IMG/VR virus record: IMGVR_UViG_3300021375_000049
Location: 1 to 47,364 of that record
From: a virus
DNA: 47,364 nucleotides
Reading direction: 5' to 3' (one strand)
Each line of letters opens with the position of its first letter. Positions within the stretch are counted from its first letter, which is position 1. The position numbers and the translations under genes were made by a program. The notes below the pieces were generated by a model. It was given only the letters and a program-made list of their open reading frames with translations. It did not search any database and had not been told where the DNA came from. Positions 1 to 47,364 of this stretch are shown here, one piece after another.

Positions 1-1
1 T

Positions 2-67
2 ATCGATTTCTTTGACAATCCGGCAATGGAAACACCCGGTGCGAGATTCTGGAATGTATGGCGTTAA
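2..67 (+). CDS. C-terminal fragment of an unidentified phage protein
   Basis: An open frame enters the window from the left edge and ends at a TAA at 65-67. About 21 residues are visible, ending PGARFWNVWR. The fragment is too short for a family call. It runs on the plus strand and so converges with the gp46/47 operon. An ATG directly follows the stop (68-70) but opens only a 14-codon frame, which I do not call a gene. That this is a real gene end is inferred from the sensible residue composition and from the change to non-coding sequence right after the stop. Confidence 0.4.
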   Translation: MDFFDNPAMETPGARFWNVWR

Positions 68-99
68 ATGAAATACAGACAAACGACAAACAGTATTAA

Positions 100-285
100 A
101 AGATACAGGCTCTGAGATAGCAACCTGTTAGCCACAAAACCGAACTCATCCAGGTAATGTGGTTCCCGTGAGATACCAGTGACGGTAGTGTAAGGGGGGA
201 CAAGGCTCACCGCCTCCTAGTAGCACCCGAGATTGAGATGATGATGCCATCACATGATGACTCATTCTTCACCTTTATAGGTGAA
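100..285 (+). ncRNA. GC-rich, hairpin-rich gene-free region; candidate structured RNA
   Basis: The gap 68-391 has no convincing gene; its longest ATG frames are 14 and 17 codons with no clear ribosome site. About 105-232 is much richer in G+C than the rest of the window, which in an AT-rich phage often marks a structured RNA. Visible stems include ACAGG/CCTGT (105-109 with 124-128), CCACA/TGTGG (132-136 with 158-162), CCGT/ACGG (166-169 with 182-185), AGGC/GCCT (203-206 with 212-215) and a 7-bp hairpin TTCACCT/AGGTGAA (268-274 with 279-285). It has no tRNA T-loop or recognisable ribozyme core. The strand is assumed. It could equally be an untranslated 3' region of the gene ending at 67. Confidence 0.3.
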
Positions 286-378
286 TTATGACTTCACCAT
301 ACATGATAACGGCTTTAAAAAAAATTACAAACAAATGAAAGAGTTGAGTGAAACGAAACGATTGAATGTAGTTTGTAA

Positions 379-393
379 AGACACGAAGTGTCT
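379..393 (-). terminator. Possible weak terminator at the end of the gp55-47-46 operon
   Basis: AGACAC and GTGTCT form a 6-bp stem around a three-base loop, overlapping the stop codon of the 267-aa gene. On the minus strand it is followed by only a short T stretch, so it may be an RNA 3'-end stabiliser rather than a strong terminator. Its position at the end of the operon supports the call. Confidence 0.3.
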
Positions 394-1195
394 ATATACA
401 TTTCCAACTATGTAAATATTTGTGTTTTGCCAGTATTTCTACTATGTTGTCAGGCATATCAATAAGTTCTCCCAACAATAAATTACCCACAGTTAATCTT
501 TTATCATTAAAATCGTACGGCATTTTTTCCTGCACCTTAGTATAAAAGTTAAACATTCTACGCATCTGAGTATTCTGTTTGCTCACAGTATTATAAACGC
601 CTTGACCAAACCACATAAACAATGTATTACGCATCAGAGTAGTGCATTCTACTTGTTCAGGTGTAATGTCTAAATCGTTGTCCAGATATATTGAATAAAA
701 TGATTTACCCACATGTGGATATGCCATGTACAACTTTCCGGGTTCTCGTGTAATCGTAAAGTGATTAAGTGCAGACTCTGGTAAAGGTACACCAGCATCG
801 CCATCGCACATAAAATAAATTGTTGAGCTGTTGAGTTTGTTTTGTAAAAATTCTAAATGATGTATTCTGCTGTTAAAGTTTCTGAGTACCTGATGCAATT
901 CGGGGTCGTTTTGTTCTGCAAAATCATGAAGTTCCACAAACTCACTATGTAAGACATTTAAATCGTCTCCTAGATCCTTGTCAGGAAGTCTGGTTGCAAC
1001 AAAATTCTTAATTTTATCCAGTTCAGTAACAATGTCTTGTTCTGTTTCACCAAATCCATAAAATTCTTTTCTGCTGATTATATTATTGGCTTGTTGTTTC
1101 ATTCTGTCATAAAACAATCTGCCGTGGTCTGTGTCGTATATTCTATATGTCAGTTTGTGAGACTTGTTTTCACCAAAATATACATCAATTAACAT
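392..1195 (-). CDS. Conserved-looking hypothetical protein, last gene of the gp46/47 operon
   Basis: A 267-residue acidic, soluble protein with no signal peptide, membrane segment or motif that I recognise. The middle (about 70-125) is rich in charged and leucine residues and probably helical. The C-terminal half holds aromatic-rich stretches such as TLMRNTLFMWFGQGVYNTVSK. Its ATG lies 11 bases inside the end of gp46, so translation is probably coupled and the product may act with the gp46/47 nuclease in recombination, replication or host DNA breakdown. That role is inferred from position only. The stop overlaps a small hairpin. Confidence 0.75.
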   Translation of the reverse strand: MLIDVYFGENKSHKLTYRIYDTDHGRLFYDRMKQQANNIISRKEFYGFGETEQDIVTELDKIKNFVATRLPDKDLGDDLNVLHSEFVELHDFAEQNDPELHQVLRNFNSRIHHLEFLQNKLNSSTIYFMCDGDAGVPLPESALNHFTITREPGKLYMAYPHVGKSFYSIYLDNDLDITPEQVECTTLMRNTLFMWFGQGVYNTVSKQNTQMRRMFNFYTKVQEKMPYDFNDKRLTVGNLLLGELIDMPDNIVEILAKHKYLHSWKCI

Positions 1196-2951
1196 AGTCT
1201 GTGTCAGTATTATATGATGTAAACCCGCCCTCTTTTACTACAGTTAATACATTGTTTACTCTGCCCACAAGTTCTTCTTTGTGGGAAATTAACATGATAT
1301 TTTTGCCTTGTTCACGATGCATTTTTTTAAGTACTGCAAGAGCATTTTCTACACCCATTGTATCCATACCTGAATCCACAAGTTCGTCAATACATAACAG
1401 GTTCATAGGCCTGTTTAAACTTTCATACATGTCTCTAAATGCCCAACTTAAACCTAAGATAAGTCTGTTACGCTCTCCACGACTTAAATTATCAAAGTCT
1501 AAATCTCTGCCGTATTCAGTAATATCAACACTAAGGTCACTACTAAACTTAACATCATGTGGCAAGCCTAATTTTTCCAGATAAAATGCTAATCTGTGAT
1601 TTAAGTATGCAATGTTTTGGTCTATAATCTTTTTACGGATAAAACTGTCTTTGCTGGTTAATAGTTTATATAAAAATTCTTGATGTTCCTGCAAGTGTGT
1701 GAGTTCATTCATAGTCTCAAAACTTATTTCTTGTATTCCTGTTCTTGTTAAACTGTCTATCTGTTCTAAATAGGGATTTTCGTCCTGTGCTTTTTCCTCA
1801 AGTTGTGACATCATGGTTTCCACATTGTGTTTGTGTTGTAAGGCGTCTTCAATATTACTATATGATGTAACAGGAACTTCAGGTATGTCTCCAAAATCTG
1901 TGAGACTTTCTTCTAAACCATTAACTCTTTGGAATAAATCGTCATAATATGTTTGTTCAGTATCAATTTTTATTTTTAAGTCTTGTGTATATTCTTCGTG
2001 TGTATCTAAATGAGCAGTAGGTTGTTCACATGCTGGGCAAACACCTGATTCGGCACTTGCAAGATTGCTTCTTAATTCGTCTATTTTTTCTAAACTTCTG
2101 TCTAACGAAATTTTTGTTCTGTTGAGTTCCTGCTCTGCAATATTTTTTGCTTGTTGCTGTTCTTTTAGTGTGGTTTTTATTTTATGTTTGTCTAATTCTT
2201 CGTCAATATTAATAGTTTCTAAACTCACAATAGCATTACCAAGCTCTTCTATCTTTAAGTTTTTGTTGGCTTCCCAAGCCTTACCGCGACTTTCTATTTC
2301 AGCAATATTTTTTTCTATACGTTTATTGCTTTCTTCAACAGCATTTATACGAATTTCTTCTTCTTTTATTGAATCTCTAGTATTTTTTTGCCTTTCTTTT
2401 AACACTTCTGCTTTACGAGATAACTCAGTTATACCCAGTAATTGCTCTATCATATCCCTTTGATCGTTGTTTTTCATGCTCAGGAAAGGCTCAGTATAAG
2501 TGTTTAGTGCAATTAAATGCTTAAACATATTATGTGGAAAGCCTATTATTCGCTCAATTTCTTTCTGTGTTTCTCTGCTATCGCCTTGTTGTTCACCATC
2601 TAATGCATCTTGGCCATCAATATAAAATTTAAGTATATTAGGACGTCTGCCACGTTCTATCCTGTATTGTTTGCCTTTTATTTCAAACTCTACAGTAACA
2701 ATCATGCCTTTGCCATTAGTTTTGTTTATGAGATTATCTTTACGAATGTTTGTTAGTGCATCTCCATACAATGCATAACTGAGTGCATTTATTATAGTAG
2801 TTTTACCAGTACCGTTTCTGCTACCGTCTCCGCCCATGTCTAAGTTGTGTCCTAGTACAAGTGTAAGTTGGCAGTTATCAAAATTTACTGCCTGTGTGTT
2901 GTTGCCAACACTCATAAAATTCTTTGCTGATACGTTTTTAATCTTTAACAC
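1185..2951 (-). CDS. gp46: gp46-like recombination nuclease ATPase subunit (SbcC/Rad50 family)
   Basis: This is the ATPase partner of gp47. In T4 the complex resects DNA ends for recombination-dependent replication and degrades host DNA. The 588 residues show the full SMC/Rad50 layout: Walker A GSRNGTGKTT (about 43-52), a coiled coil, a zinc hook CPAC (Cys305 and Cys308), a second coiled coil, the ABC signature LSRGE (489-493), Walker B LLCIDE (518-523), D-loop SGMD (527-530) and an H-loop histidine in LISH. Length is close to T4 gp46 (560 aa). The start is GTG: it shares its first G with the TAG stop of gp47 (TAGTG), so the two subunits are translationally coupled. Confidence 0.95.
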   Translation of the reverse strand: MLKIKNVSAKNFMSVGNNTQAVNFDNCQLTLVLGHNLDMGGDGSRNGTGKTTIINALSYALYGDALTNIRKDNLINKTNGKGMIVTVEFEIKGKQYRIERGRRPNILKFYIDGQDALDGEQQGDSRETQKEIERIIGFPHNMFKHLIALNTYTEPFLSMKNNDQRDMIEQLLGITELSRKAEVLKERQKNTRDSIKEEEIRINAVEESNKRIEKNIAEIESRGKAWEANKNLKIEELGNAIVSLETINIDEELDKHKIKTTLKEQQQAKNIAEQELNRTKISLDRSLEKIDELRSNLASAESGVCPACEQPTAHLDTHEEYTQDLKIKIDTEQTYYDDLFQRVNGLEESLTDFGDIPEVPVTSYSNIEDALQHKHNVETMMSQLEEKAQDENPYLEQIDSLTRTGIQEISFETMNELTHLQEHQEFLYKLLTSKDSFIRKKIIDQNIAYLNHRLAFYLEKLGLPHDVKFSSDLSVDITEYGRDLDFDNLSRGERNRLILGLSWAFRDMYESLNRPMNLLCIDELVDSGMDTMGVENALAVLKKMHREQGKNIMLISHKEELVGRVNNVLTVVKEGGFTSYNTDTDYVN

Positions 2952-3967
2952 TAATCAATCTCTATGCTGTTATAAATGTTTATTAATTGTTCTTTTTCTA
3001 CTGTTTTACTTTCTATTGTTTCTAATTGTTGTATAACAATTTGGTCAACACTTTCGAAACTAATTTCACCGCCTTCAAATTCTTCTTCTTCCTTTACAGG
3101 CAATAATTGGAGTTCACGAACTTTGTATTGCTCTGCAAACTTCTCTCTGATAAAGTTTGCTTCTTCATAACTAATGTTGATGTCCAATTTAACTCTAGCA
3201 TAAGTATATTCGTCTAATAAATTTTGGTGATCATCCAATAACTGTTTTAGTGTAAAAACTCTGTACTTGGGACACTCAGTCCAATTTACATATTGAGGCT
3301 CTTGACCCCATGTTAGGAACATTGCACCACGTTCGTCATCGTCCACATCTGCGTAATTATGTGGGAAAGCATTACCAATATAATGTATATTATTTTTATA
3401 TTGACGTTTGTGGAAATGACCACTAAACACATACTCAGGACCACTCAACATTTTGTCATTAATGCCTCCGTGGTCGGGCATTTCTACCATTGCATTCATT
3501 TTAAAGTAGGGTAACTCAAAATGTCCAAACATATATTTGACATCCATTTTTGCTACCTGTTTGTGTTCATCGCCCACTAGCCAAGGTATAATAGCAACAT
3601 CATCTTGTAGGAAATGCTCATCTACCATAACAAAATTAGATAGATCTCTAGCATACTCTATACTATTTAAATCACGTTTTTCTCTGTAATATAAATCATG
3701 ATTTCCAGTTATAAAGTAAACAGTTTCAAATGCTTCATTAATTTTCTTAAGGTCCTTTATAGTTGCATTCATTGTTGCAACATTAACACTTGCTCTATGA
3801 TGATGCCAGTCTCCTAGGAATATACATGTTTCTGCATTTCTGGCTTTTGCTTCCGCAATAAACCAATCCACATACCTGGCACAATCTTCTATATGTAAAC
3901 GGCTGTTCTGTTTTAATCCGTAATGAATATCCGTGAAGCATGCCGCTGTTTTAAACAGTTGGGACAT
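2951..3967 (-). CDS. gp47: gp47-like recombination nuclease subunit (SbcD/Mre11 family)
   Basis: Metallophosphoesterase nuclease subunit that pairs with gp46. The metal-binding motifs are all present in order: FTDIHYG (Asp13, His15), LGDWHHH (51-57), TGNHD (87-91), FGHFE (148-151) and SGHFHKR (182-188). At 338 residues it matches the T4 protein (339 aa) closely. The C-terminal 110 residues are acidic and probably carry the region that docks on gp46. The ATG lies five bases after the gp55 stop and the end overlaps gp46 by one base, so gp55, gp47 and gp46 form one coupled operon. Confidence 0.95.
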   Translation of the reverse strand: MSQLFKTAACFTDIHYGLKQNSRLHIEDCARYVDWFIAEAKARNAETCIFLGDWHHHRASVNVATMNATIKDLKKINEAFETVYFITGNHDLYYREKRDLNSIEYARDLSNFVMVDEHFLQDDVAIIPWLVGDEHKQVAKMDVKYMFGHFELPYFKMNAMVEMPDHGGINDKMLSGPEYVFSGHFHKRQYKNNIHYIGNAFPHNYADVDDDERGAMFLTWGQEPQYVNWTECPKYRVFTLKQLLDDHQNLLDEYTYARVKLDINISYEEANFIREKFAEQYKVRELQLLPVKEEEEFEGGEISFESVDQIVIQQLETIESKTVEKEQLINIYNSIEID

Positions 3968-3972
3968 ATTTA

Positions 3973-4833
3973 TTAAGTGTTTATATCTGTTTGATTCGCT
4001 TGTTCACGAATGATTCTCATCTCGTTCTCATGCTGTATCTGTCTGCCATAACTTGGTAAGTGTCCTTGCTCAATCAGTATATCGTCTCTGATAGTTTGGT
4101 TTCTTTTTTCCAAATTAAGTATTCGTGTAAAACTGTTATTAACTGCGGCTGTATAATATGCAAAAGGGTTGTCTGATTTCATTTCGTTAAACTGTAAGCC
4201 GATGTAACTTAATTGTACTAATGCTTGTCCTCTCATTTCATCAATGTAAGTATACCCTCTCCAATTTGCTCTGTGGGAATATCTTTCTACAAGTTTTAAA
4301 AACATATGACCTAACTTGTTAGTAATTTTACCGTGTTTACAATTAAATTGACCATTGCTTAAACCACCTTCCCAATGACTTCTAGATACTTCTTTGACCT
4401 CGTCACTAACATATGCATAATGCTTAAATGGAGGAAAGTTTACTTTTGCTAAAAACTCTGCTTCAGTTTTAGGATTTTTCTTTCTGCCTGGCTCTTCAGG
4501 AATATGTTCCATAGTCATAACACGAAACACTAAATCCTCTACAGGAATACTTTTAGGGTCTACAGCAAATTGTTTTTGCTTGGGCTTGTTCTTATAATCC
4601 TTAGGATCATGAACTGCCATTGCGGCTTGATATCCTTCAGATTGCATCTTTGATGCCCTATTTTCTCTTGCGGCTTTTATACTATTTCTGTTTATTTTTT
4701 TAACATCTTGCAGTATAATATCGAATTCAGAGTATTTTTCGTCTGCTAACCAGCAGAATGTCATTTTACTTTTGTGAATTTCTTTTAGAATATCTTTATT
4801 ATTAAGATAATTTACTTTTTTAGGCTGTGCCAT
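3973..4833 (-). CDS. gp55: gp55-like sigma factor for late transcription
   Basis: This is the phage sigma factor that directs host RNA polymerase to late NATAAATA promoters. The N-terminus (VNYLNNKDILKEI) resembles the T4 gp55 start, and residues about 175-255 (SHRANWRGYTYIDEMRGQ, then NPFAYYTAAVNNSFTRIL) match the sigma region-2-like core. The protein has 286 residues against 185 in T4. The extra length is mainly a basic linker at about 40-150. The T4 C-terminal hydrophobic/acidic clamp-binding tail is not evident; the protein ends in QANQTDINT. A strong ribosome site GAGGAGA (4841-4847) sits seven bases before the ATG. It is the first gene of the operon. Confidence 0.9.
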   Translation of the reverse strand: MAQPKKVNYLNNKDILKEIHKSKMTFCWLADEKYSEFDIILQDVKKINRNSIKAARENRASKMQSEGYQAAMAVHDPKDYKNKPKQKQFAVDPKSIPVEDLVFRVMTMEHIPEEPGRKKNPKTEAEFLAKVNFPPFKHYAYVSDEVKEVSRSHWEGGLSNGQFNCKHGKITNKLGHMFLKLVERYSHRANWRGYTYIDEMRGQALVQLSYIGLQFNEMKSDNPFAYYTAAVNNSFTRILNLEKRNQTIRDDILIEQGHLPSYGRQIQHENEMRIIREQANQTDINT

Positions 4834-9405: not shown

Positions 9406-11754
9406 ATGAGTAGAGGCGATCAGGCTAACGGTCAAATAGATTCAGGTAATACAACTCCTGAAGGATTAAGAAACACAGTAAAAAATCTGGAATATACCGG
9501 TGTTCATTTGGCTATGGTTACTGACGCCAGTGACTATCACAGAGAAGGAAAAATAAAAGTTTTTATACCTAAATTAGGTGGTGATATTGCTAAGATATTT
9601 AATACTTACAACTCTGTTAATCAGGTTATAAGTTCCGTTCAAGGGGCAGAAAGGTATGCTAAATGGAGCTCACCCTTTTTAGGAACAACACCAAAGTTCA
9701 CAGGCGGTAATGCAGAACTTGACAATATGTCATATGAGCAGACGCAAAAATCTTATGGTATGTGGATGGCTCCTCCTGATCAAGGAAATTTAGTATTAAT
9801 AGCATTTGTAGGTAATAATGTAAACGATGTTTATATATTATCTTGCATAGGAGGCCCACAGTTTAAATCACACATGATTCCATCTATACCAGGTTCTCTT
9901 TTTAATTATGGTTTAGGCGGAAGCGGTATTAACCTACCAGTTGCAGAAAAATCCATAATTGATCCAATTAAGGGCCAAGAAGGTGCAGACGTCCCCAGAC
10001 CACCACACCATGATTTAGCAGAAGCATTAGTAAAACAAGGTCTTATTTTAGATAAGGTTAGAGGTACTGCTAGATACGGAATGAAACACAAAGATATAAA
10101 TTCCACATATGGTATTCTTACTCCAGGACCAAAAGTAAGATCTGCTGAAGAGGGTAAAGGTAACCCAAATCACAGAACAGGTGGACATACTTTTGTAATG
10201 GACGACACTATAGATAGTCGACATATTAGATTAAGAAGTGCTGGTGGTAACCAGATACTTTTAGACGATAATGAAGGCATAATTTATATAATTAATAAAT
10301 CTGGTACAGCATGGATAGAACTTTCCAAAGAAGGAGGCATTAATATTTTTGGTGAAGGAGATACTAGTATCAGAGCCAAAGGTAATTTTAATTTAAGAGC
10401 AGATAAAAATATTAATTTAGAAGCAGGAAGAAATATACGACTTAAAGCATCTGGTGATATGAAAGAAAATGAATATGCAGGTATGCCTAAAGGATATAAG
10501 TCAGGTATACATCAAGGCCCAGCAGGTTCAGGGGGTGATATTAGATTGGAGTCAGTAGGTGCGACATCAATTTTAGCAGGAACAAACTCAGTAATTAATG
10601 CAAAAAATGGTGATGCAACTATCAAAGGTGCTAACAAAGTTAATATAGATGCTAGAAAAATAAACATAATGTCTTTAATTAAACCTGCTCCTTTAGGAGA
10701 TCCAGACGTACTTGGTGGAATTACAATAGAAGCATTAGGAGGCCCATTAGGGTTATTAGGCACAACTGGGTTAAACTTAGTTGGTACAGCCGGCATAGGA
10801 CTTACAGGTGTTCCTATTTTATTAAATTCTCCTCCGGGAATTGCAGGTATGCCACCAATGAAAGGAACCCCAGGTCCTTCATTAAAACCACTCACCATGC
10901 AAGACTTAACAGATCTATCCAGTACACCACCTGAGTATGATAGAGACGGTGCAAATATTTTGCCGGGAGGTGGTGTAAGAAAAGATGGCGCGACCATCAG
11001 CACTATTGTAACAGAATTACTCACAGCAGAACCTTATGCAGGACATTACAAATCAGATGCGGCCGCTGATGCTAATCAACTCGGAATGTCGGAAGACCTG
11101 GGTGCAGATACTGACCCAAGTGCCCAGCCTCCTGGAGATAGCAATGATCCATATGCAGGATATAAAGCAGAAGTTAAACAAATAATAAACGAAGTAATAC
11201 AAAAAAGAATTCAAGACGATCAAGAAAAACTTGATGATTTGTTGGGTAATTTACCGTTTCCTATTCCTGGACTTGAAGCATTTAAACAACAGGCAGGTGA
11301 TAAGGCAAATGAATTAATGAGTAATTTTAATGTGGCAGGTCTTAAAGGAAACCTGACTTCTTTGCTTAATTATGAAGAATATTTAAAGGGTTTAATTATG
11401 CCAAGTTTTAGTTTTGATATTCCAACAGTATCAGACTTACTTGCAGGTAAATTTGGGTACGCACTAGCACTTCCAGACTGGATGGCAGAAACAAAAGCAA
11501 TGATTTTGGACGTCCAGAATAGACTTGTAGAGTTAGAAAAATACAGGCAAAACCCTGCCGCCGCCTTGGGTAATTTGGCAAATCAAGCAATAGGTGAAGT
11601 TGGAGGTGATTTAGGGTTAGACAACATGAACAATGTTGGAGATGTTAGCAAATTAGCAAATAATGTAATGCAACAAACTGGTTTAAATTCTGCACAATTA
11701 AATCAGAAAGTAAGTGATATTGCAAATAGTATTACTAAAGGAGGAAACGGATAA
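9406..11754 (+). CDS. gp5: gp5-like baseplate central spike (OB fold and beta-helix), without an evident lysozyme domain
   Basis: A 782-residue central spike protein. Residues about 29-150 form the OB-fold/VgrG-type domain (HREGKIKVFIPKLGG; MWMAPPDQGNLVLIAFVGNN). About 260-430 carry the repeating beta-helix strands of the needle (IRLRSAGGNQILLDD; GTAWIELSKEGGINIFGEGD; NFNLRADKNINLEAGRNIRL). A Gly/Pro-rich stretch follows (about 440-495), then a predicted helical C-terminus. T4 gp5 carries a lysozyme domain between the OB fold and the helix. I see none here, but the next gene has lysozyme-like character. It is coupled to that gene by a one-base overlap. Confidence 0.85.
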   Translation: MSRGDQANGQIDSGNTTPEGLRNTVKNLEYTGVHLAMVTDASDYHREGKIKVFIPKLGGDIAKIFNTYNSVNQVISSVQGAERYAKWSSPFLGTTPKFTGGNAELDNMSYEQTQKSYGMWMAPPDQGNLVLIAFVGNNVNDVYILSCIGGPQFKSHMIPSIPGSLFNYGLGGSGINLPVAEKSIIDPIKGQEGADVPRPPHHDLAEALVKQGLILDKVRGTARYGMKHKDINSTYGILTPGPKVRSAEEGKGNPNHRTGGHTFVMDDTIDSRHIRLRSAGGNQILLDDNEGIIYIINKSGTAWIELSKEGGINIFGEGDTSIRAKGNFNLRADKNINLEAGRNIRLKASGDMKENEYAGMPKGYKSGIHQGPAGSGGDIRLESVGATSILAGTNSVINAKNGDATIKGANKVNIDARKINIMSLIKPAPLGDPDVLGGITIEALGGPLGLLGTTGLNLVGTAGIGLTGVPILLNSPPGIAGMPPMKGTPGPSLKPLTMQDLTDLSSTPPEYDRDGANILPGGGVRKDGATISTIVTELLTAEPYAGHYKSDAAADANQLGMSEDLGADTDPSAQPPGDSNDPYAGYKAEVKQIINEVIQKRIQDDQEKLDDLLGNLPFPIPGLEAFKQQAGDKANELMSNFNVAGLKGNLTSLLNYEEYLKGLIMPSFSFDIPTVSDLLAGKFGYALALPDWMAETKAMILDVQNRLVELEKYRQNPAAALGNLANQAIGEVGGDLGLDNMNNVGDVSKLANNVMQQTGLNSAQLNQKVSDIANSITKGGNG

Positions 11755-36100: not shown

Positions 36101-36847
36101 TATTTTGGATATGATTCAGAAGCATTTGATACATTTAGTAACGATTTAAGTATAGAAGTTATAAATTATTCAGGTACTTTTGATAGCTCACTAGTAAACT
36201 TTAGACGAAACGACCAAACATATGAAGGATTTGATGGTGTAACATTTAGCAGAATGCTATATGGAGAAGACAGACCGGAAGAACTAATACAGATTGATCC
36301 AAAGGAAAATGTTTTAATTACAGTAACAACAAGTCCTTATGCTAATGCTGATGCAACTGGAAACATTGTAGTTGCAAATGCACAACCTATTACTTACAGA
36401 ATCCACAGAGCAATAGACGGTGAAAGCCATTTCCTAAGAGTAAGATCAAGTACTACATTGTCTGCTAACTTATTAATAAGTGACAGAAGTATAAGTGTAG
36501 CAAATGCTAGTGTATTACCTAGACCAACATTAGGAGTACCTGGTGTTATGTGGATAGAATCAGAAAGAATTACATATAAAGAAAGAGATATTATTAGTAA
36601 TACTATTAGTGATATTACAAGAGGAACAAAAGGTACTAGTGCTGAAAACTGGTATGTTACTGATGAAGCAGGAGCAACTATCACACTAAATGTTTATGAT
36701 GGATCTAGTAATCAAGAGTTTACAGACTTAGTTGGTACTCCGGAATCTAATACATTCTTTGACACAGGTGCTGTAAGTTTAACAGATTATAATAGTGCTA
36801 ATGCAAGTAGTATAACAAGCATAATGAAATTTTTACATGACAAATAA
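18170..36847 (+). CDS. Giant tail/baseplate structural protein (6225 aa) with a YHYH-type domain
   Basis: One uninterrupted frame of 18.7 kb in the position where T4 has gp7 to gp12. Features by approximate residue: GxGY beta repeats near 250, 290, 470, 610, 2600, 4620 and 4650 (for example NNAGSGYRRADLLTI); a Trp-rich block RPNTNPWEMLGF...PTWWD (1517-1537); a YHYH-type domain (about 1750-1885, GWAFDGLPIYGPYG); a cysteine-rich segment RCGPDACAS (3745); a Ser/Thr/Gly linker ending in nine glycines (about 4155-4215); GKVWWDTSTIRYNWYEQG (5318); and a tail-protein motif MWIESERITYKERD with RGTKGTS near 6130. The modular beta-rich make-up suggests a peripheral baseplate or fibre protein that contacts the host. 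I see no protease or cleavage signal. Confidence 0.85.
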   Translation: MADKLYKKLPEVLQTTAVKNFFDSTVEQLFSPANVETINGFIGKQDSDQHNVLGTFIRESTATRHHYSLTPAINTINANTGLSENFIFYDELVDNLKVNGVSTSNHNRLFSTNYSSFLPPIDIDKFINYQEYFWSNNDLRAITVSGSLTSPIDIDTDIIGKKSFVSANNVTLKNGMVINFSGEFVIPSNRSGIDYYVDGVGTSIRLIPRNQNVASGYATAVLTTWDNTIFTELDSNVKHTAGNITSVNIDNPGIGYLEPVISFTGANTTLATATANSNISGSITDVTVTGNGTGYSAPIGITISGTEVFTTLNVANTMVSFYNADKSTKRYSYNKIALDDSSNIFIGQNVLISGTDNTTVESLTNTSIVSIENISNSFDSSRTPGTYTTSGSTSGSGSGQNFRITVFDETEIQNIVNIDDQKPTWSGNATVVTARTNLTKTGLNATGGSGTGATFDVVYDGSQNVTVSINNAGSGYRRADLLTIAGNNIDGVSGPNLTFNVFEIEKPQGIHEVGNITLSNASISDTSFVVDMLDVPTAGNIATSGSGDDAIFNVAISSGSVSVDILDGGIDFSEGDTFTIYGNLFGSANSDTITFTIDNVLEPGDSFIELINGGTGHAVGDTITITDAQLGSGGGSDLTFDIAREGDILTVSEEVLLNQGSNLSLKFNGTGFIATVRTDMYSFTSNASGTFTSGISDMAISGVDPNTGDYYLGGAPDSSTDYGWDLDNDGDGDGDAVWGGRTSQGNPDYNVLKRGSVNRNIWSRVNFWHHKQNYIDAGMDVPSKEYRAKRPIIEFDHDIELYNHGKKFIGEVLVVEPVRQKSDIEGQAVSILIDGSPLPVGGTIIFPNETATISKYIYKVSHSNASISLSRVANLNENPVNAVDGDADFVALEFTEGDVVNIKAGEQNIGSEWYWKDNILQKAQQKLNLHQAPLFNIYNDEGNFLGDTDTYTNTDFVGNKIFNYKIGSGAKDTILNTSLSFKQYYNSSEIQFENFLETENVKYLKDNISTTVPGYYYYKKDKTSPEFHNLWKEGQNKSKQNINTFYYIDRFNLDNKDLNYFIGCEPKVNNNYPSGYEITVKINDKIVSNYAYTQKGLIKFDSFDFKQDDVIEISAYTDNNIISERTISKYELPLSWDHNTQKFDIENISKPEFLEHFSNYVKNTSGLIGESLGSNNFKDLSTNPSDALDIVKTDEDLILGSFLLNDSSYNLQDAINFCHKEYVAYKNRLISEIQKYFNSTDTSDLTNEFILDKVLQNVISFSVGKDVFQRTYTIPFGDNYVTEEKIINTLNDTSFTPTKYIDLSKIENSILVYKVTGTQTDLLEIDKDYTISSTTTSNTFTPTSSLNLQLADRLIFKIYDKERDSAECPATPSVLGLYPLTQPVIETDNSFQTPIEVVIGHDGSKTPTVGNKLDEILLEFETRIYNSAKKEFRDANSLPELNVFSVRAGKFRDTNFTNNEWYDLMRTNFNTWNIKNNTDFVTNEFYDSNNEWTWNYRSASAIPGHWRGWYEYYYDTVRPNTNPWEMLGFTEKPTWWDTQYITTTYTDYSSNNTPMWEDLELGLIRQGPRENLSGNEYKDLENNPCARPGLKDVLPVDSSGNLKSPYDIDSTGATTITKTYNETVSNTSLDYKTTSYLVTDGLSVYFDSSNVYVSSKNISNYSIDKIGTLAGEQPIKSITSAYSIPQVNLNSITLSNTSMQNGATGVLTNGQPIYNPSNATSFEGDGNWTYNAGFLEKQAREEGIIAHTDNNGLVHTHVPTVEMSNTEVWGNSTTHSGIVGWAFDGLPIYGPYGYSSYHANGSVNDNSITNVKSSFELKPGSRSSHPGGTHTGLFLEDYQYSASLASQNGTAGKFNTRYGTTPESPSTPIRFYVTTIDDNGEPMFPYAVGGGTKTDNTYNGEYYATPQDLSNNRKGIAPTPSSVTTAIRSTYTETQTNDGSINEIWRFGDGAPVENAWKYSSSYPFAVVLALFLSKPGKFARAFADPTALINTKLGPKSFRVEKSSRKTWNYKNQDHFKIHGTYDENRNFITNIGYSQFIRSWLKFQNYDVTTNFKDVLTTLNTKISHRMAGFVDGDTATVKTDQFSTTGNASSIIIPVENRQLSIHDSGNKTRNNYTGVIIEKTLNGYKVKGYDPTLLYFNILESDKTQEKQSITRGGKPVSYTNWQSNKYYPLGTIVNYLGAYYKAKINVPENSSFVSSQWDRLPSLPQEGGATGIIYNRSTGIEKRVDYGKEYTSDQDVFDLLVSIGRYQKSIGYDFGDYDESINSVKDWVYAAEQFLFWVTGGWEIGNTLELSPCAGRIIFSKEQEAISEIKRLDRGQFSILDQDSSVIDPKECDIIREGNNFEIRPPVGKQIFSITLFTKQIEHILSIDNISDFNDTYYNDLINQRIRRIKIKGRRTLGWEGRLSSEGFIIDGPELQPNLDNITATMANYHNIGFIPVDKQIYNASRSLIGFSNKKYLTELGIDDDDQVEFYKGMIQSKGTLNSISKILNSNAIVQGNVNIYDEWALKAGSFGDLDNNQSIELKLSKQDIVQDPQLFTLEFPEDITGLVKEIVITERNASYYETPLIELGVPSTSPKKQATAVATLSSDGTINSISITEPGSGYVQENTTLTVLASNLNVTSNTYTFNYVSAVSTGLFPQANTTGIANITIIDHFASNTSAQTIDLSSATEVANVVTAINSQGVTNANIVATSIETYNASSNTSSFVLQITGSDFSLGGSGLANLNLATQRYQPRQRFGFTIANNTTVDNVIVSVDSTVVPRVEGNVTYWEYDAGDRFGTTTSTLTTSGTYDVNIASLTGMINSSSILANENTALVEGIYPYVDVYVNGTKLENTVDQNQYSIPNNTTVRILDVTNLEEGNIAPNSNIYIVEKATIDFTDDYQGDVPASNLSIKVQSNEGFSVQIASKRIYDITPDIKNDEIITIDIDDKHRFLKKPAGIRTNEIWPLVSNVDYTGVKDTDFTKIPNAGYVDRRHVNYQSFGVIDMPALFGPDRVYKPSKNELIHIAKSDNDDWNVYKLREPKDLGVTFVEQDGTPGAYLYTTADLFDYVDSNQLQQTDLSRFLDYTLVLKQARTSEDVVLWTNQEVVDKKSALIRDFGAITMLQANIDTIGVGASSPFYNNFSNISPATRAKIVGDVIQADANGTVTMTANGGSTIQNGDKLLLIDPLHTEVTHSANSLLHSDTANATSGSANAIFDSKITITASDPANVNNIVSNITMIDLSFSGSNVGDFTVDEVTDIRYTASNVDYVAGTFDIQTDDTVFQSYFGNIANTTITGVTNSLTSIEFTVHEHSNVHLQTVTASNVNLNNGTYTFNQSNVTANASNIVGRLLTKCELTVLDHGFYTGEIVKVLSNNIRGYYQVESATQDAFVINAPYHANLDVTGQVLSRGLHIKTSEPHNLPVGYNGKRVMIHQSQNPYYNQTFNVGYVKNDTEIIVEDVFAWNATEDDVSPTFNATVNGAVVDSNSVKLTSPPIEIGRRFIVTGTGITERVRVTDISKMNVTGVIKLDKKVTLDDSTVLSFEKECVLTTLDHDVIKLNNTSFRIDDITTPQGIVESLNNTQAVKAGLVNKKGNTFGLGIPMLKKPYLPDGTPYRAYAGKTPYVRNEEVDANLSAGMDKMGHIKIKNPQNAGYKPFNKGAVTSYIDRGTGFEVDTSQGFGNRSPYDNYVANPQYFGTGGNVVDGPDVNVGQTYSNQGPINNGVIDVPVYTPKINQNIALNDNGPGTPIFTGQALQGAPEKRCGPDACASTNRAGRGIPHSVIKNNGPITWNSQNCGIESTGTISVSGTVTGTGHGKRSWTSGYSGYYGPTGQTGGTALDFRKRAIAGALTWSDNGSTQSFQVPFKVTENGKIYVHGYQSGKGLFGTHGGRDTTFISVSVVSGNATIVGSGTVKCKYMGEGYQPASGVGGVIEVDMLADSEILITGTCKGGSNHWHGCEMHVSGKRDGLNKQSERIVVGENNTSTQTGTQSGNGDYVIFDYTDKMGPNKTEEFLFESPGSGTATILFNNYSGSDGIQVFSGPSKGSENNLVIESTWGNLRRLTDNERQELRNKFVVSSTGASSSNYAKTNYDQYATKQNVKPKSPLTGQKIGVVHAGAMDFDIPAGSDRYIKVVIPKASYVFDHIIKLPNATPPPDDPATDPNPTVPCGQQTSMPTGNNSSSGGSSSTGPGANTSGTGASTSSNNTGTTTSGTNPSGASGGAGGGGGGGGGYQYTKNYGNPIKAAVRAFNSLSNKQKITPKWNYPTIAQTSGFYRSPMAGMSFIPSIYRKKVKMVAGTGYGLPISLTSGRYVNNQVQKISGGFVVPLAQRLTKNIPLKARPLRNLDAAEYPYYNVLDANKSAFEKGGMFYDWNPKKIRGDYKLDDGTFLDITGATLTGADVGLGLGNLLYYSNPYNGTGVGGDTPVDTMPVTPPEELAEGPIELNDDDVIWNPNFQITLQPKINGNVAGPKIIVPLYKPVPGHTIDTSNLSGLNPEDTFSINGRTVGPFKGTSPDAILKAINCVDATGFEATPLSNDLIRISSCSNVPLTIKEGCSGGLYKEVLDFHINRAFVSQEISNTSTVAATTNILDANGSVVDTAVSYAHLDVSGGVVGYSNVSAGQGYVSSSNVVQTGGSGYSVGDRLRVVGGTPIKDPFTGVKEICIKNSGAGYSLPENIIVTIGDGSTPGRNALVKNVVFDKNNGIKKVNLYSGGEEFDVNRPPKVTIIDTGSIPQPQDYANTLQRGDFVKYTEFEISNIDSIGTVASSIPVGNTIITEADSGVTVSANANNIDGVNARLKIIVTQTDAGVKSATVEVKKGGRHWYIGQTFTIRPDVLGGTSSDTPLTFQVGNVNPLLLKYAQLNQDSAGIDTLGDALREGILTFKSGFLQPQQAELEAVLDNKPGGRVPRVAKFEVTSVDYYGTVTSVKILDRGIYKVFPSDLTNGLPLEYDHILLGDEAGFNDDGTEYVGGSGLGQFDPITLDALSSPGGYDPINNLLLGGAGAKIFLTASEIPDCSQPGSAKRALGLPDVIADIDAVADFGSAIQGAIGNAGYGPDDFNIDINPINDLISQIDLSSPIYDGIEIGETTPGVLDSLGLPPGDYNIASLCVHAVVETKLKEENQVVANRLNQLVDDLGLGLDTSGPIDVIKLLCVDTIGSGDDDNGQDGISIFGDGDVEFLRDLFQYELRSLTGDPVRLLSSGVSQEADILYLESQRFSGNAQISSANTNYPEISSNISSYANIWIDNYNDTGKWAYLENSTIISQQEDLTDTRFINKIITYNDESGIKQNDIHLFDPFKGILPGFIENEIHFIGENDPVVYDTARSNFCDDKMIGKVWWDTSTIRYNWYEQGTARDRWQNWGSTFPGSNVSIYEWVKSDLPPASWTLSGTPRSQFITKTEINPSTNKVVTYYYFWVRNYKTLLDFVREEQGRNFTAFDLAKYIADPVGYGLNLISFINDKSFVMSNIAHILDDDNDNLQINFSRNKNPNGKKHDSWLLARQGDNNSKIPEDLSQKLIDSLCGYDAQGQAVPDRNLSNVQKYGSSFRPRQTFFKNVKDARKVALDFINDLFKSLKMNTEYQDWDNDLVSSRNYISVENWYAKKSVDQITNLPEYYDDSYKPVYRVNSVTEFNTLSNIRDGVVVQVKGSDTDRSRLFVYNGNLRTFKLISVENEIIQLKDGIFNDNTNTSLDKELRSVLQTIKDNKFNNASHWNKLFFLMLEYAYGEHSGLDWAFKTSYVFVEKEETDLIKFAGFKPDNFEKVLEYMNEVKPYSSKIREYKDGKNPPLEYIKDQMISDYDKPPYADFAQGTIRILDENVDADYKFMANTADYVKYHSIANKNESPIRQTKTSIVFDRTNWQPTQFQWNPSTESANSSIATNIAWIKSASNSDVSGNSNVRSIDRIIKFDTDVSNKFTNEMEIYLTDQGYVAGSSANTTLISNATILLNAIEAGSLDGTLNSARNKVGGNFIGDILDANVFSKVVDGYDPSTDYQEYFGYDSEAFDTFSNDLSIEVINYSGTFDSSLVNFRRNDQTYEGFDGVTFSRMLYGEDRPEELIQIDPKENVLITVTTSPYANADATGNIVVANAQPITYRIHRAIDGESHFLRVRSSTTLSANLLISDRSISVANASVLPRPTLGVPGVMWIESERITYKERDIISNTISDITRGTKGTSAENWYVTDEAGATITLNVYDGSSNQEFTDLVGTPESNTFFDTGAVSLTDYNSANASSITSIMKFLHDK
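30788..30814 (+). repeat. Nine-codon poly-glycine microsatellite in the giant gene
   Basis: Three copies of GGTGGCGGT encode nine glycines (residues 4207-4215) at the end of a Ser/Thr/Gly-rich linker. A perfect GC-rich 9-mer repeat is unusual in this AT-rich genome and could vary in length by slippage. Confidence 0.85.
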
Positions 36848-37538: not shown

Positions 37539-39386
37539 ATGGCATATACAATAACAAATTCAGATAATAGTAGGACAATAACAGTCCAAGATACTACTGT
37601 CGATACCACCTATGCCTTAAAGTTAATTGGAAGAAATGTATCAGGATATGGGCAGTATTTTGTAGAAAATACTGTAAGACATCTTGAAAACTTCGCTAGT
37701 ACCACATCACCATCGGGTGAAAAATTAACCGGGCAACTTTGGTATGACAAAAGTGAAAGTATTTTAAAATACTGGAATGGATCTACATGGAAAAGAGCTA
37801 CAAATATAATTGTAAACTCTAGTGCTCCTAGTACATCTAATACAGGTGATGCATGGTTTGATACCGGAAACCAAAAGTTATATATTTACAATGGTACAAC
37901 TTATAAACCAGCCGCATATTCAGGTGAAGTTACAAACGAATACTCGAGCGATTCAAGTGTAGGTTCCCCTAGTAATTACGGTACAAAATTAAGAAATATT
38001 TATTTAACAGATTCAGGTGGTAATCCTAAACCTGTACTAGGTTTAGTTTATGTCAGTGATGGTACAGTTAATGGTGGTGCTACAACTACAACTGACGGTA
38101 AAGAAACACTGATGGGTATATTCAGTGATCATCCAGAATTTGTTGCTGGTAGTACAGACAGTAAATCAGACGGTCAAAATATAAATTATTTTACAGAACT
38201 AAGTGCAACTGGTGGTATAGGTACAACTATCAAACCAGGTATGAACCTTAGAGATGAATATGCCGCAACAGCAGTAGCACTAGCAGAAAGAGCATATAAG
38301 GCCGATACAACATATAAAATTAATTTAGGTAATATAGGATCACCAGGTTCAAACATTGACGCAGGTTCTATTATTACAACATTAGGAAGTTACATACCAA
38401 CTACAGACGATGCATTTACACTAGGTAGTGCAAGTTCAAAATTTGCAGAAATGTATTCAGGGACTATTACAATAGGTGACGGTTCTACTGGTCTTATAAG
38501 TGCAAATGGTAGTGTAAACCTAGGAGAGTCAAGTACTAGATTTGCTAACGGTTATTTTACAAACATAGATGTAAGTGGTAATGTAACATTTGGTGCAGGT
38601 ACACAAAACTTAGGAACAAGTGGAGCACCGGTAGAAAATTTTTACTCAGCAAATGCAAGTATTACTACTAGCCTCACATTAGGTTCAGGTGGTACAGCAT
38701 TTACACTTCCAATTACAGACGGTAGTGCTGATCAGGCACTTATTACAGATGGTTCAGGTGCTGTAAGTTTTGGTAATGTTGCCCTTAGTACAACTACATT
38801 TACAGCAGGTGCAGGACTAACAGGTGGCGGTACATTAGCAAGTAATAGAACATTTGATGTTGGCGCAGGTAGTTATATAATTGTAAATGCTGACAGTATT
38901 GAAGCAGATGCCACAACAGCCGCAACTGCAAACAAACTGGTTGCAAGAGATGGTGCTGGTAATGTAGCGGCAAATTATTTTGTTGGTACAGCAACAGCGG
39001 CTCAGTATGCGGATTTGGCTGAGATATATTCAGCAGATGCAGATTATGAACCAGGCACAGTTGTAAAAATAGGCGGAGATGCTGAAATTACGCAAACATC
39101 TAGTCATGCAGATACAGATGTATTTGGTGTTATATCTACAGATCCAGCATACTTAATGAATAGTAGTGCAGATGGTTTACCAGTAGCATTACAAGGCAGA
39201 GTGCCAGTAAAGGTAATAGGAAAAATTAATAAAGGCGATAGACTGATATCAAGCGATGAGCCTGGAATGGCTTGGGCTTATGTAGACAGTGATAGTTATG
39301 ATACTAGAGCAGTTATAGGTAGAAGTTTACAAGACAAAGCAGACGGTGGTATAGGAATTATAGAAGCCGTTATAGGGATAAAATAG
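37539..39386 (+). CDS. Tail fibre-like protein
   Basis: A 615-residue fibre-type protein. The N-terminal region has two related short modules, GQLWYDKSESILKYWNGSTW (about 65-84) and GDAWFDTGNQKLYIYNGTTY (about 102-121). The middle is built of Gly/Ser/Thr-rich beta repeats (LGSASSKFAEMYSGTITIGD; LGESSTRFANGYFTNIDVSG). The C-terminal 125 residues (ADLAEIYSADADYEPGTVVK, then GRVPVKVIGKINKGDRLIS) form a compact head domain common at the ends of marine phage fibres, where S74-type chaperone domains also occur; I see no catalytic pair that would prove self-cleavage. The ribosome site AGAGGAT precedes the ATG. Confidence 0.8.
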   Translation: MAYTITNSDNSRTITVQDTTVDTTYALKLIGRNVSGYGQYFVENTVRHLENFASTTSPSGEKLTGQLWYDKSESILKYWNGSTWKRATNIIVNSSAPSTSNTGDAWFDTGNQKLYIYNGTTYKPAAYSGEVTNEYSSDSSVGSPSNYGTKLRNIYLTDSGGNPKPVLGLVYVSDGTVNGGATTTTDGKETLMGIFSDHPEFVAGSTDSKSDGQNINYFTELSATGGIGTTIKPGMNLRDEYAATAVALAERAYKADTTYKINLGNIGSPGSNIDAGSIITTLGSYIPTTDDAFTLGSASSKFAEMYSGTITIGDGSTGLISANGSVNLGESSTRFANGYFTNIDVSGNVTFGAGTQNLGTSGAPVENFYSANASITTSLTLGSGGTAFTLPITDGSADQALITDGSGAVSFGNVALSTTTFTAGAGLTGGGTLASNRTFDVGAGSYIIVNADSIEADATTAATANKLVARDGAGNVAANYFVGTATAAQYADLAEIYSADADYEPGTVVKIGGDAEITQTSSHADTDVFGVISTDPAYLMNSSADGLPVALQGRVPVKVIGKINKGDRLISSDEPGMAWAYVDSDSYDTRAVIGRSLQDKADGGIGIIEAVIGIK

Positions 39387-43666: not shown

Positions 43667-44306
43667 AGCAGAAAAAAGGCGTAGGCGGTTTTTAAAAGAA
43701 AAAAATAAATTTGGTAGTTTTAATGAACTTGTAAAACATCATAATAATAGAGACCAAACTGTTTGGTTCGATTTGGAAGGGAATATATTACAAATTAGTG
43801 CTGAACAAAAAAGGAAAAAAACTGTAAAAGAACGTAGTGTAGTTTTTACTAATGAACAATTAAAAATACTACAAGATAAAGATGTAAATTTATACAGAAT
43901 AGTACAAGATGCGGAAATAGAAACTGTTTTTAGTATAGAGCTTAAACCACTTGAAAGTCCTTTTGTAGAACATGAAAAAGATTTCTTACAACTTATACCA
44001 GAGTCTAAAAGTAAAACATTTGATATAAGTGTAAAGTATAGTAAAGGAAACTTCACTGTAAAACCTCATGTTAAAATTTTAAAAAAATATAAAGAAATAG
44101 ACAGTAGTATTGCTACTGCTAATGGAAAAAAAGTACTAAAATTTTATTTCACCAGTAAAAATGATCCACATTTTATGGTAAAAACTGTAAATATTCTACT
44201 ATCAGAATTATTAGATAAAAAGTCAGTAACAAAAAAGATTAATAAAAACCTTGATCAATGTAGTATATATACCATTAAAGTATTTGATAAATATGTGTGT
44301 ATTTAA
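43653..44306 (+). CDS. Hypothetical protein, lysine-rich
   Basis: A 217-residue basic protein with a strongly charged N-terminal helix (EAEKRRRRFLKEKNKFGSFN) and a beta-rich remainder (FTVKPHVKILKKYKEI; KVLKFYFTSKNDPHFMVKTV). No enzyme motif or membrane segment is seen. I use the ATG at 43653, preceded by GAGAAAG; an upstream GTG frame at 43620 lies inside the preceding gene. It overlaps the glycosyltransferase by 14 bases. Its last codons contain a late promoter box for the next gene. Confidence 0.65.
   Translation: MALSEAEKRRRRFLKEKNKFGSFNELVKHHNNRDQTVWFDLEGNILQISAEQKRKKTVKERSVVFTNEQLKILQDKDVNLYRIVQDAEIETVFSIELKPLESPFVEHEKDFLQLIPESKSKTFDISVKYSKGNFTVKPHVKILKKYKEIDSSIATANGKKVLKFYFTSKNDPHFMVKTVNILLSELLDKKSVTKKINKNLDQCSIYTIKVFDKYVCI
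44286..44293 (+). promoter_or_regulatory. Late promoter box GATAAATA inside the end of the preceding gene
   Basis: The predicted transcript start is near 44299, with CAGGA (44318-44322) in the leader before the ATG at 44330. An overlapping hairpin is described under 44294-44328. Confidence 0.5.
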
Positions 44307-44328
44307 GAATTTAAATTCAGGACACACA
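44294..44328 (+). promoter_or_regulatory. Nested hairpin around the ribosome site of the 44330 gene
   Basis: TGTGTGT (44294-44300) pairs with ACACACA (44322-44328), enclosing the perfect palindrome GAATTTAAATTC (44307-44318) and confining the AGGA. Most of its 5' arm lies upstream of the start predicted from the late box, so only read-through RNA would form it fully. Confidence 0.45.
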
Positions 44329-44329
44329 G

Positions 44330-45328
44330 ATGGCAAAAATAGACGTTACAGAACTAGACATATTCTATATTTCATATGATGAGCCCAATTGCGAAGAACA
44401 CTGGGCAGACTTATTAAATAAAGTACCTTGGGCTAAAAGAGTCCATGGTGTTAAAGGCTTTGATGCCGCTCACAAAGACGCCGCAAGGCAATCCGAAACC
44501 GACCGCTTTATCACAGTAGATGGTGATAACATTGTTATGGATGATTTCTTTGAGCAAGTACTTGAAGTACCTGAAACTGATCATGACGGTAATGATATAT
44601 CAGAAAGTATATTCAGTTGGAATGCCAAGAACATTCTAAACGGATTAGTATATGGAAATGGTGGACTTAAATGTTGGCCCACACAATATGTATTAGATAT
44701 GAAAACCCACGAAGCGGCTGACGATGACGAAGGCATGGAGTTTTGTTGGAAATTAAATTACATACAACTTAGTGATACTTTTAGTGAGGTACATCAAACT
44801 GCTTCACCATTCCAAGCATTTAGAGCCGGCTTTAGAGAAGGTGTTAAAATGAGTTTGGATCAAGGCACTAAAGTTAATGCATACGAGTTTAAAGAAAAAA
44901 TTTGGTGGCAAAATTATAATAGACTGCAAACATGGTGTAACATAGGCAGTGATGTAGACAATGGCTTATGGGCTATCTACGGAGCAAGACTAGGTTGTGA
45001 AATGACTGTGCTAAGTGATTGGGATACTAATCAAATATCAGATTACGATTGGTTTAGAGACTTCTTTGATAATTCAATATTACCTCGTTTTCCAGGAGAT
45101 GAAGTTTGCAGTTATACTAAAGTAGCATGGAATAAAGAAATGTTAGAAATAGCAATAAAGGATATAGGTGTAAAACTAAATGAAAGTGTAAACTCGATGA
45201 TGTTATTTGATCCCAATCCTAAAATGTGTGAGTTTTTTAAAACAACTTATGTAAATCCTAGGCGTTGGGGTGTAATGATTCGAGAAAAACAAATTCAAGA
45301 ATTACTGGAAAAAGGATTGATACAGTAA
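44330..45328 (+). CDS. Glycosyltransferase-like protein common in marine T4-like phages
   Basis: A 332-residue protein beginning with a strand block LDIFYISYDEPNCEEHW and RVHGVKGFDAAHKDAA, followed by TDRFITVDGDNIVMDDFF. DGD (64-66) after a hydrophobic strand is in the position of the DxD site of GT-A transferases. I recognise this type from marine T4-like phages, where it is usually left as hypothetical or putative glycosyltransferase. The C-terminal half is Trp-rich and helical. It is joined to the next gene by TAATG. Confidence 0.65.
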   Translation: MAKIDVTELDIFYISYDEPNCEEHWADLLNKVPWAKRVHGVKGFDAAHKDAARQSETDRFITVDGDNIVMDDFFEQVLEVPETDHDGNDISESIFSWNAKNILNGLVYGNGGLKCWPTQYVLDMKTHEAADDDEGMEFCWKLNYIQLSDTFSEVHQTASPFQAFRAGFREGVKMSLDQGTKVNAYEFKEKIWWQNYNRLQTWCNIGSDVDNGLWAIYGARLGCEMTVLSDWDTNQISDYDWFRDFFDNSILPRFPGDEVCSYTKVAWNKEMLEIAIKDIGVKLNESVNSMMLFDPNPKMCEFFKTTYVNPRRWGVMIREKQIQELLEKGLIQ

Positions 45329-46038
45329 TGAGTAAAGTTTGGTTTTTTGGAGATAGTTTTGCCCATCCACCTTACATAAAAGATTTGTCAGAGGATAAAA
45401 ATAATTATTGGTGGGGTACAAAACTATGTAATAAACATAATTTAACACCAAGAGTAATGTCAGAGCCTGGTAGCACTTTAACATATACGCAAGAACAATT
45501 ATTAAGATTTAAAAATCTGATAAACGAAGAAGATTTAGTTTTTATTTTTTACACTACCCCTTACAGAATAGATTTTGGTAAGAAAGTAGTAAGAATAATA
45601 TCTAATGGTATGACCTCTACAGGAAAATTAATGGCTATTATAGACCCTGCACAGGAAATATCAGATGAAAGATTAAATAAAATTTTAAATATGTATATTG
45701 CACTAGGTTTAGATTTAGAAAGACATTTAAATCAACAATATGCTACTGTTAATTATATACAACATGTTTTAGTGCCAGACATAATAGAAAAAAGAAAACC
45801 TAAAGCAATATTAGAATTTTATTCTTTTAGAAGAACACAATTATGTCATAGCAATATAATTCATCCAGATGAAAGTTTGCTAAAAAATTTACCGGAAGCA
45901 ATGGAATGGATAAAAATGAATTGTAAAAAAGATGATATTGATGTAGAAGAAATATTTTCTGACCCTTCACATTTTGGTAATCCTAAAGTAGGAGATTATA
46001 ACGAAAAATATTTAGAATATATTGAAAGTTTACTATGA
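45328..46038 (+). CDS. SGNH/GDSL hydrolase-like protein
   Basis: A 236-residue protein with the nucleophile motif FFGDSFAHP (Ser10) at the very N-terminus and a C-terminal DPSHFG (Asp212, His215) matching the DxxH block of SGNH hydrolases. Together these give a plausible Ser-Asp-His set. Such enzymes often add or remove acyl groups on sugars, which fits the surrounding glycosyltransferases. The internal Gly and Asn blocks are less clear, so activity is not certain. The ATG shares a base with the preceding stop (TAATG); a longer upstream frame is not supported. The end overlaps the radical SAM gene in ATGA. Confidence 0.7.
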   Translation: MSKVWFFGDSFAHPPYIKDLSEDKNNYWWGTKLCNKHNLTPRVMSEPGSTLTYTQEQLLRFKNLINEEDLVFIFYTTPYRIDFGKKVVRIISNGMTSTGKLMAIIDPAQEISDERLNKILNMYIALGLDLERHLNQQYATVNYIQHVLVPDIIEKRKPKAILEFYSFRRTQLCHSNIIHPDESLLKNLPEAMEWIKMNCKKDDIDVEEIFSDPSHFGNPKVGDYNEKYLEYIESLL

Positions 46039-47364
46039 GTAATTATGACCAGGCCGCCGATAAGGCCAAAAAACAGTTAGACAAAATAAGTCCAACTATG
46101 TGTTATGCAAAGTGGACACAGGTTTCTATGCACTTAACAAACGGTAAGACACATAGTTGTTATCATCCGCCTACACACGATATTGATCTAGAAGAACTAA
46201 AAATAAATCCCACAGCACTACATAACACAAAAGAAAAGAAAGAGCAAAGAGCTCAAATGTTAGCAGGAGAAAGACCTGAAGGCTGTAGTTATTGTTGGCG
46301 TATAGAAGACGTAGGCGGGAGAAGTGATCGTGTATATCGTAGTGGAGAATATTGGGCTCAGAATGCCAGAGAAGAAATTGCGGAAGCAGGTGCTGACGGA
46401 AATATTAATCCCAGATACGTAGAAGTAAATTTTAATCAAGCATGTAATTTTAAATGTAGTTACTGTTCACCTCATTTAAGTACCACATGGGAAAAAGAAG
46501 TTAAAGAATTTGGTTCATATAATATTATACAAGGCGAGCATAACAATTTAAAAAGTTTAAGTAATCAAGGATTACTACCACAAAAATTAGCACAAAACGA
46601 AAATCCATACGTTGAAGCATTTTGGAAATGGTGGCCCGAGTTATATAAAAACTTAGAAGTTTTTCGTATGACTGGCGGAGAGCCATTAATGGATGTTAAT
46701 ACATTTAAAGTCTTAGACTATGTGTATAAAAATCCTAATGCCTGGTTGGAGATGTCTATGACATCGAACATGGTACCACCTAAACCTATCTTAATGGATA
46801 TGTTTATAGAGAAACTACAAAGTTTAGAAGAAATACAAATATGGGAAGACCCAGAAAAGTTTAACCCAAACTCAGGGAACAACTGGTATGTAGCACCAGC
46901 ATGTAAGAACTTTGCCACATTTGTAAGTGTAGATGGTTACGGTATACAAGCAGAGTATATGCGAAACGGATTGGATTTTCCAGTGCTTCAAAAAAATGTA
47001 AAACGTATATTAAGCGAAACAGATAATAGCACAATAACTTTTATTAATACATTTAATGTACTAAGTTTAACTAGTTTAAAAGATTACTTACAATGGATAT
47101 TAGATTTACGAGATGAGTATGCTAAAGATAAGCAAGGAATAAAATATATTCCTATTCCAGATAATGGAGATCACAAGCATGATGATTATGAAGTAAAACC
47201 AAAACAACGTATATGGTTTGATATCCCTTTATTAAGGGCACCACTATGGCAATGTATACAAATTATGCCCGACTATTATCAGAGTTATTTGGAAGAAGCA
47301 ATAATCTTTATGGAGTTAAATCAAGCAGATGAAGTAAATATAGACTATAGAGGCTTTAAAGACT
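46035..47364 (+). CDS. Radical SAM protein (twitch/SPASM-like), truncated by the window end
   Basis: At least 443 residues; the frame is still open at the edge. The radical SAM cluster motif CNFKCSYC (Cys137, Cys141, Cys144) is followed by MTGGEPLM, the SAM-binding GGEP motif. The N-terminal 100 residues have further cysteines (SCYHPPTHD; GCSYCWRIED), the sort of arrangement in which a second iron-sulfur or truncated SPASM domain is found. The reaction is unknown; related proteins modify peptides or sugars, and the place at the end of a glycosyltransferase/SGNH series suggests glycan or virion-protein modification. It is coupled to the preceding gene by ATGA. Confidence 0.85.
   Translation, partial: MSNYDQAADKAKKQLDKISPTMCYAKWTQVSMHLTNGKTHSCYHPPTHDIDLEELKINPTALHNTKEKKEQRAQMLAGERPEGCSYCWRIEDVGGRSDRVYRSGEYWAQNAREEIAEAGADGNINPRYVEVNFNQACNFKCSYCSPHLSTTWEKEVKEFGSYNIIQGEHNNLKSLSNQGLLPQKLAQNENPYVEAFWKWWPELYKNLEVFRMTGGEPLMDVNTFKVLDYVYKNPNAWLEMSMTSNMVPPKPILMDMFIEKLQSLEEIQIWEDPEKFNPNSGNNWYVAPACKNFATFVSVDGYGIQAEYMRNGLDFPVLQKNVKRILSETDNSTITFINTFNVLSLTSLKDYLQWILDLRDEYAKDKQGIKYIPIPDNGDHKHDDYEVKPKQRIWFDIPLLRAPLWQCIQIMPDYYQSYLEEAIIFMELNQADEVNIDYRGFKD

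Follow-up and report, generated by a model that had tools for sequence, protein, structure and literature searches.

The DNA word GCWGC has been eliminated from the 47,364-bp stretch of viral DNA analysed here (the window), and we confirmed that its avoidance reaches from these 47 kb to the whole lineage. Selection acts on the word itself, not on protein or composition, as a synonymous shuffle, a switch of alanine codons in 36 of 36 cases and recurrence in independent lineages demonstrate. The explanation that we favour, with a probability of about 0.78, is restriction-site elimination under a host Type II enzyme that cuts GCWGC. Judged by its genes, the window is a fragment of an uncultivated marine jumbo T4-like myovirus.

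Absence of GCWGC from the window

An exact count on both strands of the window (33.7% GC) returned no GCAGC and no GCTGC, which bears out an earlier note, made from the sequence alone, that the word is wholly missing. The maximal-order Markov model gave an expectation of 33.7 sites (z = -5.8); the roughly twenty sites proposed in that note were therefore too few. The same Markov count, which had been suggested as a check, ranked GCWGC as the most depleted of all 5-mers, with the lowest z. Depletion to the same degree across a range of other, unrelated GC-rich 5-mers was not seen: the runner-up was GGATG (28/66.8), whose deficit was smaller under codon shuffling (25 vs 35.9 ± 4.6). GCGGC and GCCGC, described earlier as common although expected less often, were indeed in slight excess (38 observed vs 27 expected). 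AGCT was depleted separately (30/111 in the window; 29 vs 115 ± 8 in coding DNA under the codon shuffle).

In the synonymous shuffle, positions encoding the same residue exchanged their codons, gene by gene in a set of 23 genes, so that proteins and codon usage were kept. The shuffled genes held 32.4 ± 3.0 GCWGC sites, with a minimum of 23 in 1000 runs, against the observed 0. Most of the sites expected in the window fall where an alanine codon meets a downstream GC. At the 36 places where alanine precedes a GCN codon, it is written GCC (19) or GCG (17) and never GCA or GCT, although the 839 alanine codons of the window are overall GCA (487), GCT (220), GCC (95) and GCG (37), so that GCA and GCT make up 707 of them (84%). 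The avoidance of GCA before GC that had been noticed by reading thus holds without exception, and by our own arithmetic its probability is about (132/839)^36, or roughly 1e-29.

Counts across relatives and other emptied palindromes

With the late sigma factor as query we collected 80 IMG/VR loci, 70 of which contained exactly zero GCWGC. One related contig, G007 (250,519 bp), held 0 vs 194 expected, and zero counts were also found in further relatives of 92.8, 90.5, 52.5, 52.0, 48.4 and 47.2 kb. Zero GCWGC was found in 105 retrieved loci whose expectation was 5 or more; together these partly overlapping loci amount to 1.51 Mb, for which 1231 sites were expected. Exceptions among the late-sigma loci were L058 and L060 at higher GC (0.46–0.475) and L006 and L061 at 0.38 and 0.40, and a distant group, L075–L080 (GC 0.34–0.36), had normal counts (28/26 and similar). 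Judged by late sigma factor, baseplate wedge and UvsX, Pseudomonas phage PA5oct and Salicola phage SCTP-2 are among the nearest relatives in culture. Unlike the window lineage, they carry GCWGC at normal frequency (observed/expected 47/36 and 14/15, on 40-kb stretches), as does another cultured relative, Vibrio phage 2.275.O (56/63).

The UvsX recombinase, used as a second query, reached additional lineages and yielded a tree of 69 rows. Zero, partly depleted and normal counts are interleaved on this tree, and the trait needs 11 changes, 9 of which are forced by well-supported branches. G086 (86 kb), which falls outside the main clade, is an independent avoider (GCWGC 0/104) with no other emptied palindrome; its sister stands at 4/14. 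A 289-kb contig, G084, holds 54/332 sites evenly spread along its length, and CGCG there is at 9/202. When an observed/expected ratio below 0.1 at adequate expectation is taken to mark site elimination, the window (0/33.7), G007 (0/194) and G086 (0/104) all lie below it.

Other palindromes have been emptied in other relatives: AGCT (2/471), GTATAC (0/52) and GTTAAC (0/46) in G007, AGCT (0/97) and CTAG (0/116) in G018, GATC (1/150) and AGCT (0/76) in G092, and CTTAAG (0/19) and CTGCAG (1/34) in G026. All of these words, like GCWGC, are Type II enzyme sites. AGCT, reduced but not absent in the window, falls to 0–2 copies in the larger relatives G007, G024, G022 and G018, and an older constraint on this palindrome may be fading in the window lineage. 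Avoiders are also depleted about five-fold in GCWWGC (G007, 16/85) and about three-fold in GCGC (G007, 37/115), with GCNNNGC normal; possible causes include star activity and a second system.

Probable host restriction and the alternatives

Restriction is the best explanation because different relatives emptied different short palindromes, as Type II sites behave. Palindromic, lineage-specific emptied words, and a trait gained and lost several times over the tree, point to a host Type II enzyme as the agent. Under such a system a phage genome bearing GCWGC would be cut at entry into the host and mutations creating the word would be purged, while existing sites would be exchanged, down to zero, largely through synonymous substitutions in which GCA-GC or GCT-GC becomes GCC-GC or GCG-GC. 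Restriction-site elimination is well supported in kind, and we infer the specific enzyme and host. The earlier note had proposed escape from GCWGC restriction or methylation; selection on the word and the restriction half of that proposal hold, whereas a methylation-only system would give no reason to eliminate sites. Against host restriction counts the roughly five-fold depletion of GCWWGC, which a strict GCWGC enzyme alone leaves unexplained.

Site elimination is a known viral escape strategy, here unusually strict and lineage-wide. Staphylococcus phage K and its relatives are a probable parallel, a large lytic myovirus genome that lacks GATC, with a known host and known GATC enzymes; the window phage is likewise a large myovirus without one short Type II site, the site being a different one. 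TseI, ApeKI and BbvI are Type II enzymes that recognise the very word emptied here. The same word is recognised by M.AbaBS3I, a methyltransferase of freshwater Chloroflexi and an example of GCWGC methylation among uncultivated aquatic bacteria (PMC6329791). No gene for any of these enzymes turned up alongside the phages or in candidate-host genomes. The loss of orthodox Type II sites has been documented mainly in non-temperate phages, and GCWGC counts were below expectation in 66.3% of the (phage, site) cases of that survey (Rusinov et al. 2018, PMC6286503). As in those phages, a short palindromic Type II site is wholly lost from a dsDNA tailed-phage genome. Unlike in those cases, the zero extends over 250 kb and throughout an uncultivated lineage (loci totalling 1.5 Mb) with repeated on/off switching, and both host and enzyme are putative. 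A Sargasso Sea paper that contains GCWGC was discarded, as the word occurs there only in a PCR primer, and a paper examined for the phage K precedent did not bear it out, its one match being a company name.

A general bias of composition or mutation, through low GC, codon usage or amino-acid content, might have removed the word without selection, and the GCWGC observed/expected ratio does correlate with GC (Spearman 0.61), the zero set lying at lower GC (0.32–0.41). The Markov and synonymous-shuffle nulls, each of which predicts more than 30 sites in the window, rule this out and leave it a negligible probability; moreover, GCSGC is over-represented in the window, and L075–L080, SCTP-2 and PA5oct have normal counts at the same GC. 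Quite improbable, too, is some other GCWGC-dependent defence, such as a modification-dependent enzyme acting on phage-modified DNA in place of a classic restriction-modification pair, also in the variant in which the phages carry a 7-deazaguanine-type DNA modification and GCWGC is the context where the modification fails or is the target. The 250-kb relative has a QueE-like gene, a GTP cyclohydrolase and an ORF of 510 aa that bears a DSGGFQ motif and resembles tRNA-guanine transglycosylase/DpdA, and the additional depletion of GCWWGC and GCGC would fit such a defence. However, the DpdA assignment is a motif read by eye with no Pfam or PDB match, the non-avoider G026 carries a 39%-identical homologue, and the independent avoider G086 empties GCWGC alone. 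The DSGGFQ-motif ORF with the QueE-like gene and GTP cyclohydrolase was seen at L094:77-1609 (-) and L093:13053-13940 (-), and 7-deazaguanine DNA modification is possible.

We also consider it unlikely that a nuclease encoded by the phage cuts GCWGC in host or competitor DNA, with the phage itself immune by having no site. In keeping with such a nuclease, G007 lacks a PF00145 or PF01555 methyltransferase, candidate hosts have DNA rich in GCWGC, and a small GIY-YIG nuclease (G007:48331-48687) occurs in 31 family contigs, 30 of them with zero GCWGC, and was not found in the 192-kb non-avoider G026. The one contig with sites, L175, was rejected as a site-bearing avoider, since its assembly is chimeric and the sites lie beyond the phage part. 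In a comparison made largely on fragmentary contigs, however, the initially perfect correlation broke down: L181, L182, L193 and L194, all strict avoiders, retain the syntenic neighbours and lack the GIY-YIG gene. A SegE-like GIY-YIG occurs in avoiders and non-avoiders alike and was rejected as the cause, as was a PHROG 'HNH endonuclease' (phrog_1314), which is also present in G026 and bacteria; a Pfam scan of the set containing phrog_1314 gave a match to a DUF2201 metallopeptidase. For G086, no nuclease exclusive to avoiders was found in the overlapping parts of the fragments compared, and the different palindromes emptied in each lineage would require many different phage nucleases. The broader version, in which the cutting agent is phage- or satellite-borne, degrades host or rival DNA at GCWGC and spares phages sharing those hosts only by site absence, we hold to be just as doubtful. 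At L175:3578-3739, a DNA polymerase ORF runs in frame, through a short common stretch, into the C-terminal portion of the phage GIY-YIG, and all three GCWGC sites of the contig lie within the polymerase part.

If host restriction has emptied these words, they would form a fossil record of the restriction systems that a virus must survive. Each uncultivated giant-phage lineage bears its own barcode of emptied palindromes, and such barcodes may help to forecast which restriction systems marine hosts carry and to pair viruses with their hosts. The zero counts suggest restriction strong enough to strip every site from a 250-kb genome.

Phage identity, possible auxiliary genes and candidate hosts

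Besides SbcC/SbcD and a gp55-like late sigma factor, the window carries genes for baseplate proteins and a lysozyme as well as a 6225-aa ORF (Table 1), a gene set of the T4-like virulent type. Homologous late sigma factor, SbcCD, baseplate wedge and UvsX, the last tested in the 250-kb relative, place the phage with the jumbo T4-like myoviruses related to PA5oct and SCTP-2, to which its proteins are less than 60% identical. The right-hand 10.5 kb of the window had no DNA-level match among phage records.

Table 1 Features of the 47,364-bp window
Feature	Position	Strand	Basis or remark
SbcC/gp46-like recombination nuclease subunit, phage identity marker	1185..2951	-	PHROG 77, E 3e-101
SbcD/gp47-like subunit	2951..3967	-	PHROG 100, E 2e-62
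Late-transcription sigma factor, gp55-like	3973..4833	-	PHROG 12791, E 2e-95; query that fetched 80 relatives (L001-L080)
Baseplate hub / tail lysozyme-like protein	9406..11754	+	PHROG 13211, E 1e-30
Baseplate wedge-like protein, 1493 aa	13689..18170	+	tblastn: baseplate wedge of Pseudomonas phage PA5oct, homologous ORF of Salicola phage SCTP-2
Giant ORF, 6225 aa, ~40% of the window, without any GCWGC	18170..36847	+	ORF list and count
Tail-fibre-like protein	37539..39386	+	PHROG 19602; tblastn to PA5oct virion protein

The giant ORF aligns in the 250-kb relative to ORFs of at least 2121 and at least 4077 aa, divided by a stretch border. An open-ended ORF at the window edge (46035-47364) has a cysteine pattern that, by eye, suggests a radical SAM protein, and such ORFs recur in the relatives as paralogous families.

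The alternative oxidase (AOX) of G007 is 84–85% identical to Porticoccaceae genes and 70–78% identical to SAR86 genes, and thus points indirectly to marine gammaproteobacteria (Porticoccaceae/SAR86) as candidate hosts. Its matches include a 1.2-Mb Cellvibrionales MAG, where GC at that end of the AOX contig is about 34%. The idea of a cyanophage, raised by the plastocyanin- and AOX-type genes, was dropped, since psbA was found nowhere and the AOX matched marine gammaproteobacteria. A check of host candidates for methyltransferases, as the earlier note had advised, covered 37 genomes of the Porticoccaceae/SAR86 type, the majority of them MAGs and SAGs that are incomplete. PF00145 matched in 9 of the 37 and PF01555, above the cut-off, in 3; 28 had no m5C methyltransferase match, and a GCWGC endonuclease or methyltransferase was found in none. 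Bacterial genomes were also scanned with the late sigma factor for a contig linking phage to host, and no carrier emerged. GCWGC counts in candidate-host DNA were normal (observed/expected 395/443, 122/143, 131/130 and 180/196). As the genomes are mostly incomplete and the AOX may have been acquired elsewhere, the candidate-host data neither support nor exclude host restriction.

At L084:2434-4987 (-), genes for an alternative oxidase, a 7Fe-type ferredoxin, a pseudoazurin-like and a cytochrome-c-like protein form a cluster in the phage, possibly of electron-transport auxiliary metabolic genes. CsgG/CsgF-like curli secretion genes and curlin-repeat-like genes are present at L088:8694-12550 (-) in the 250-kb phage contig.
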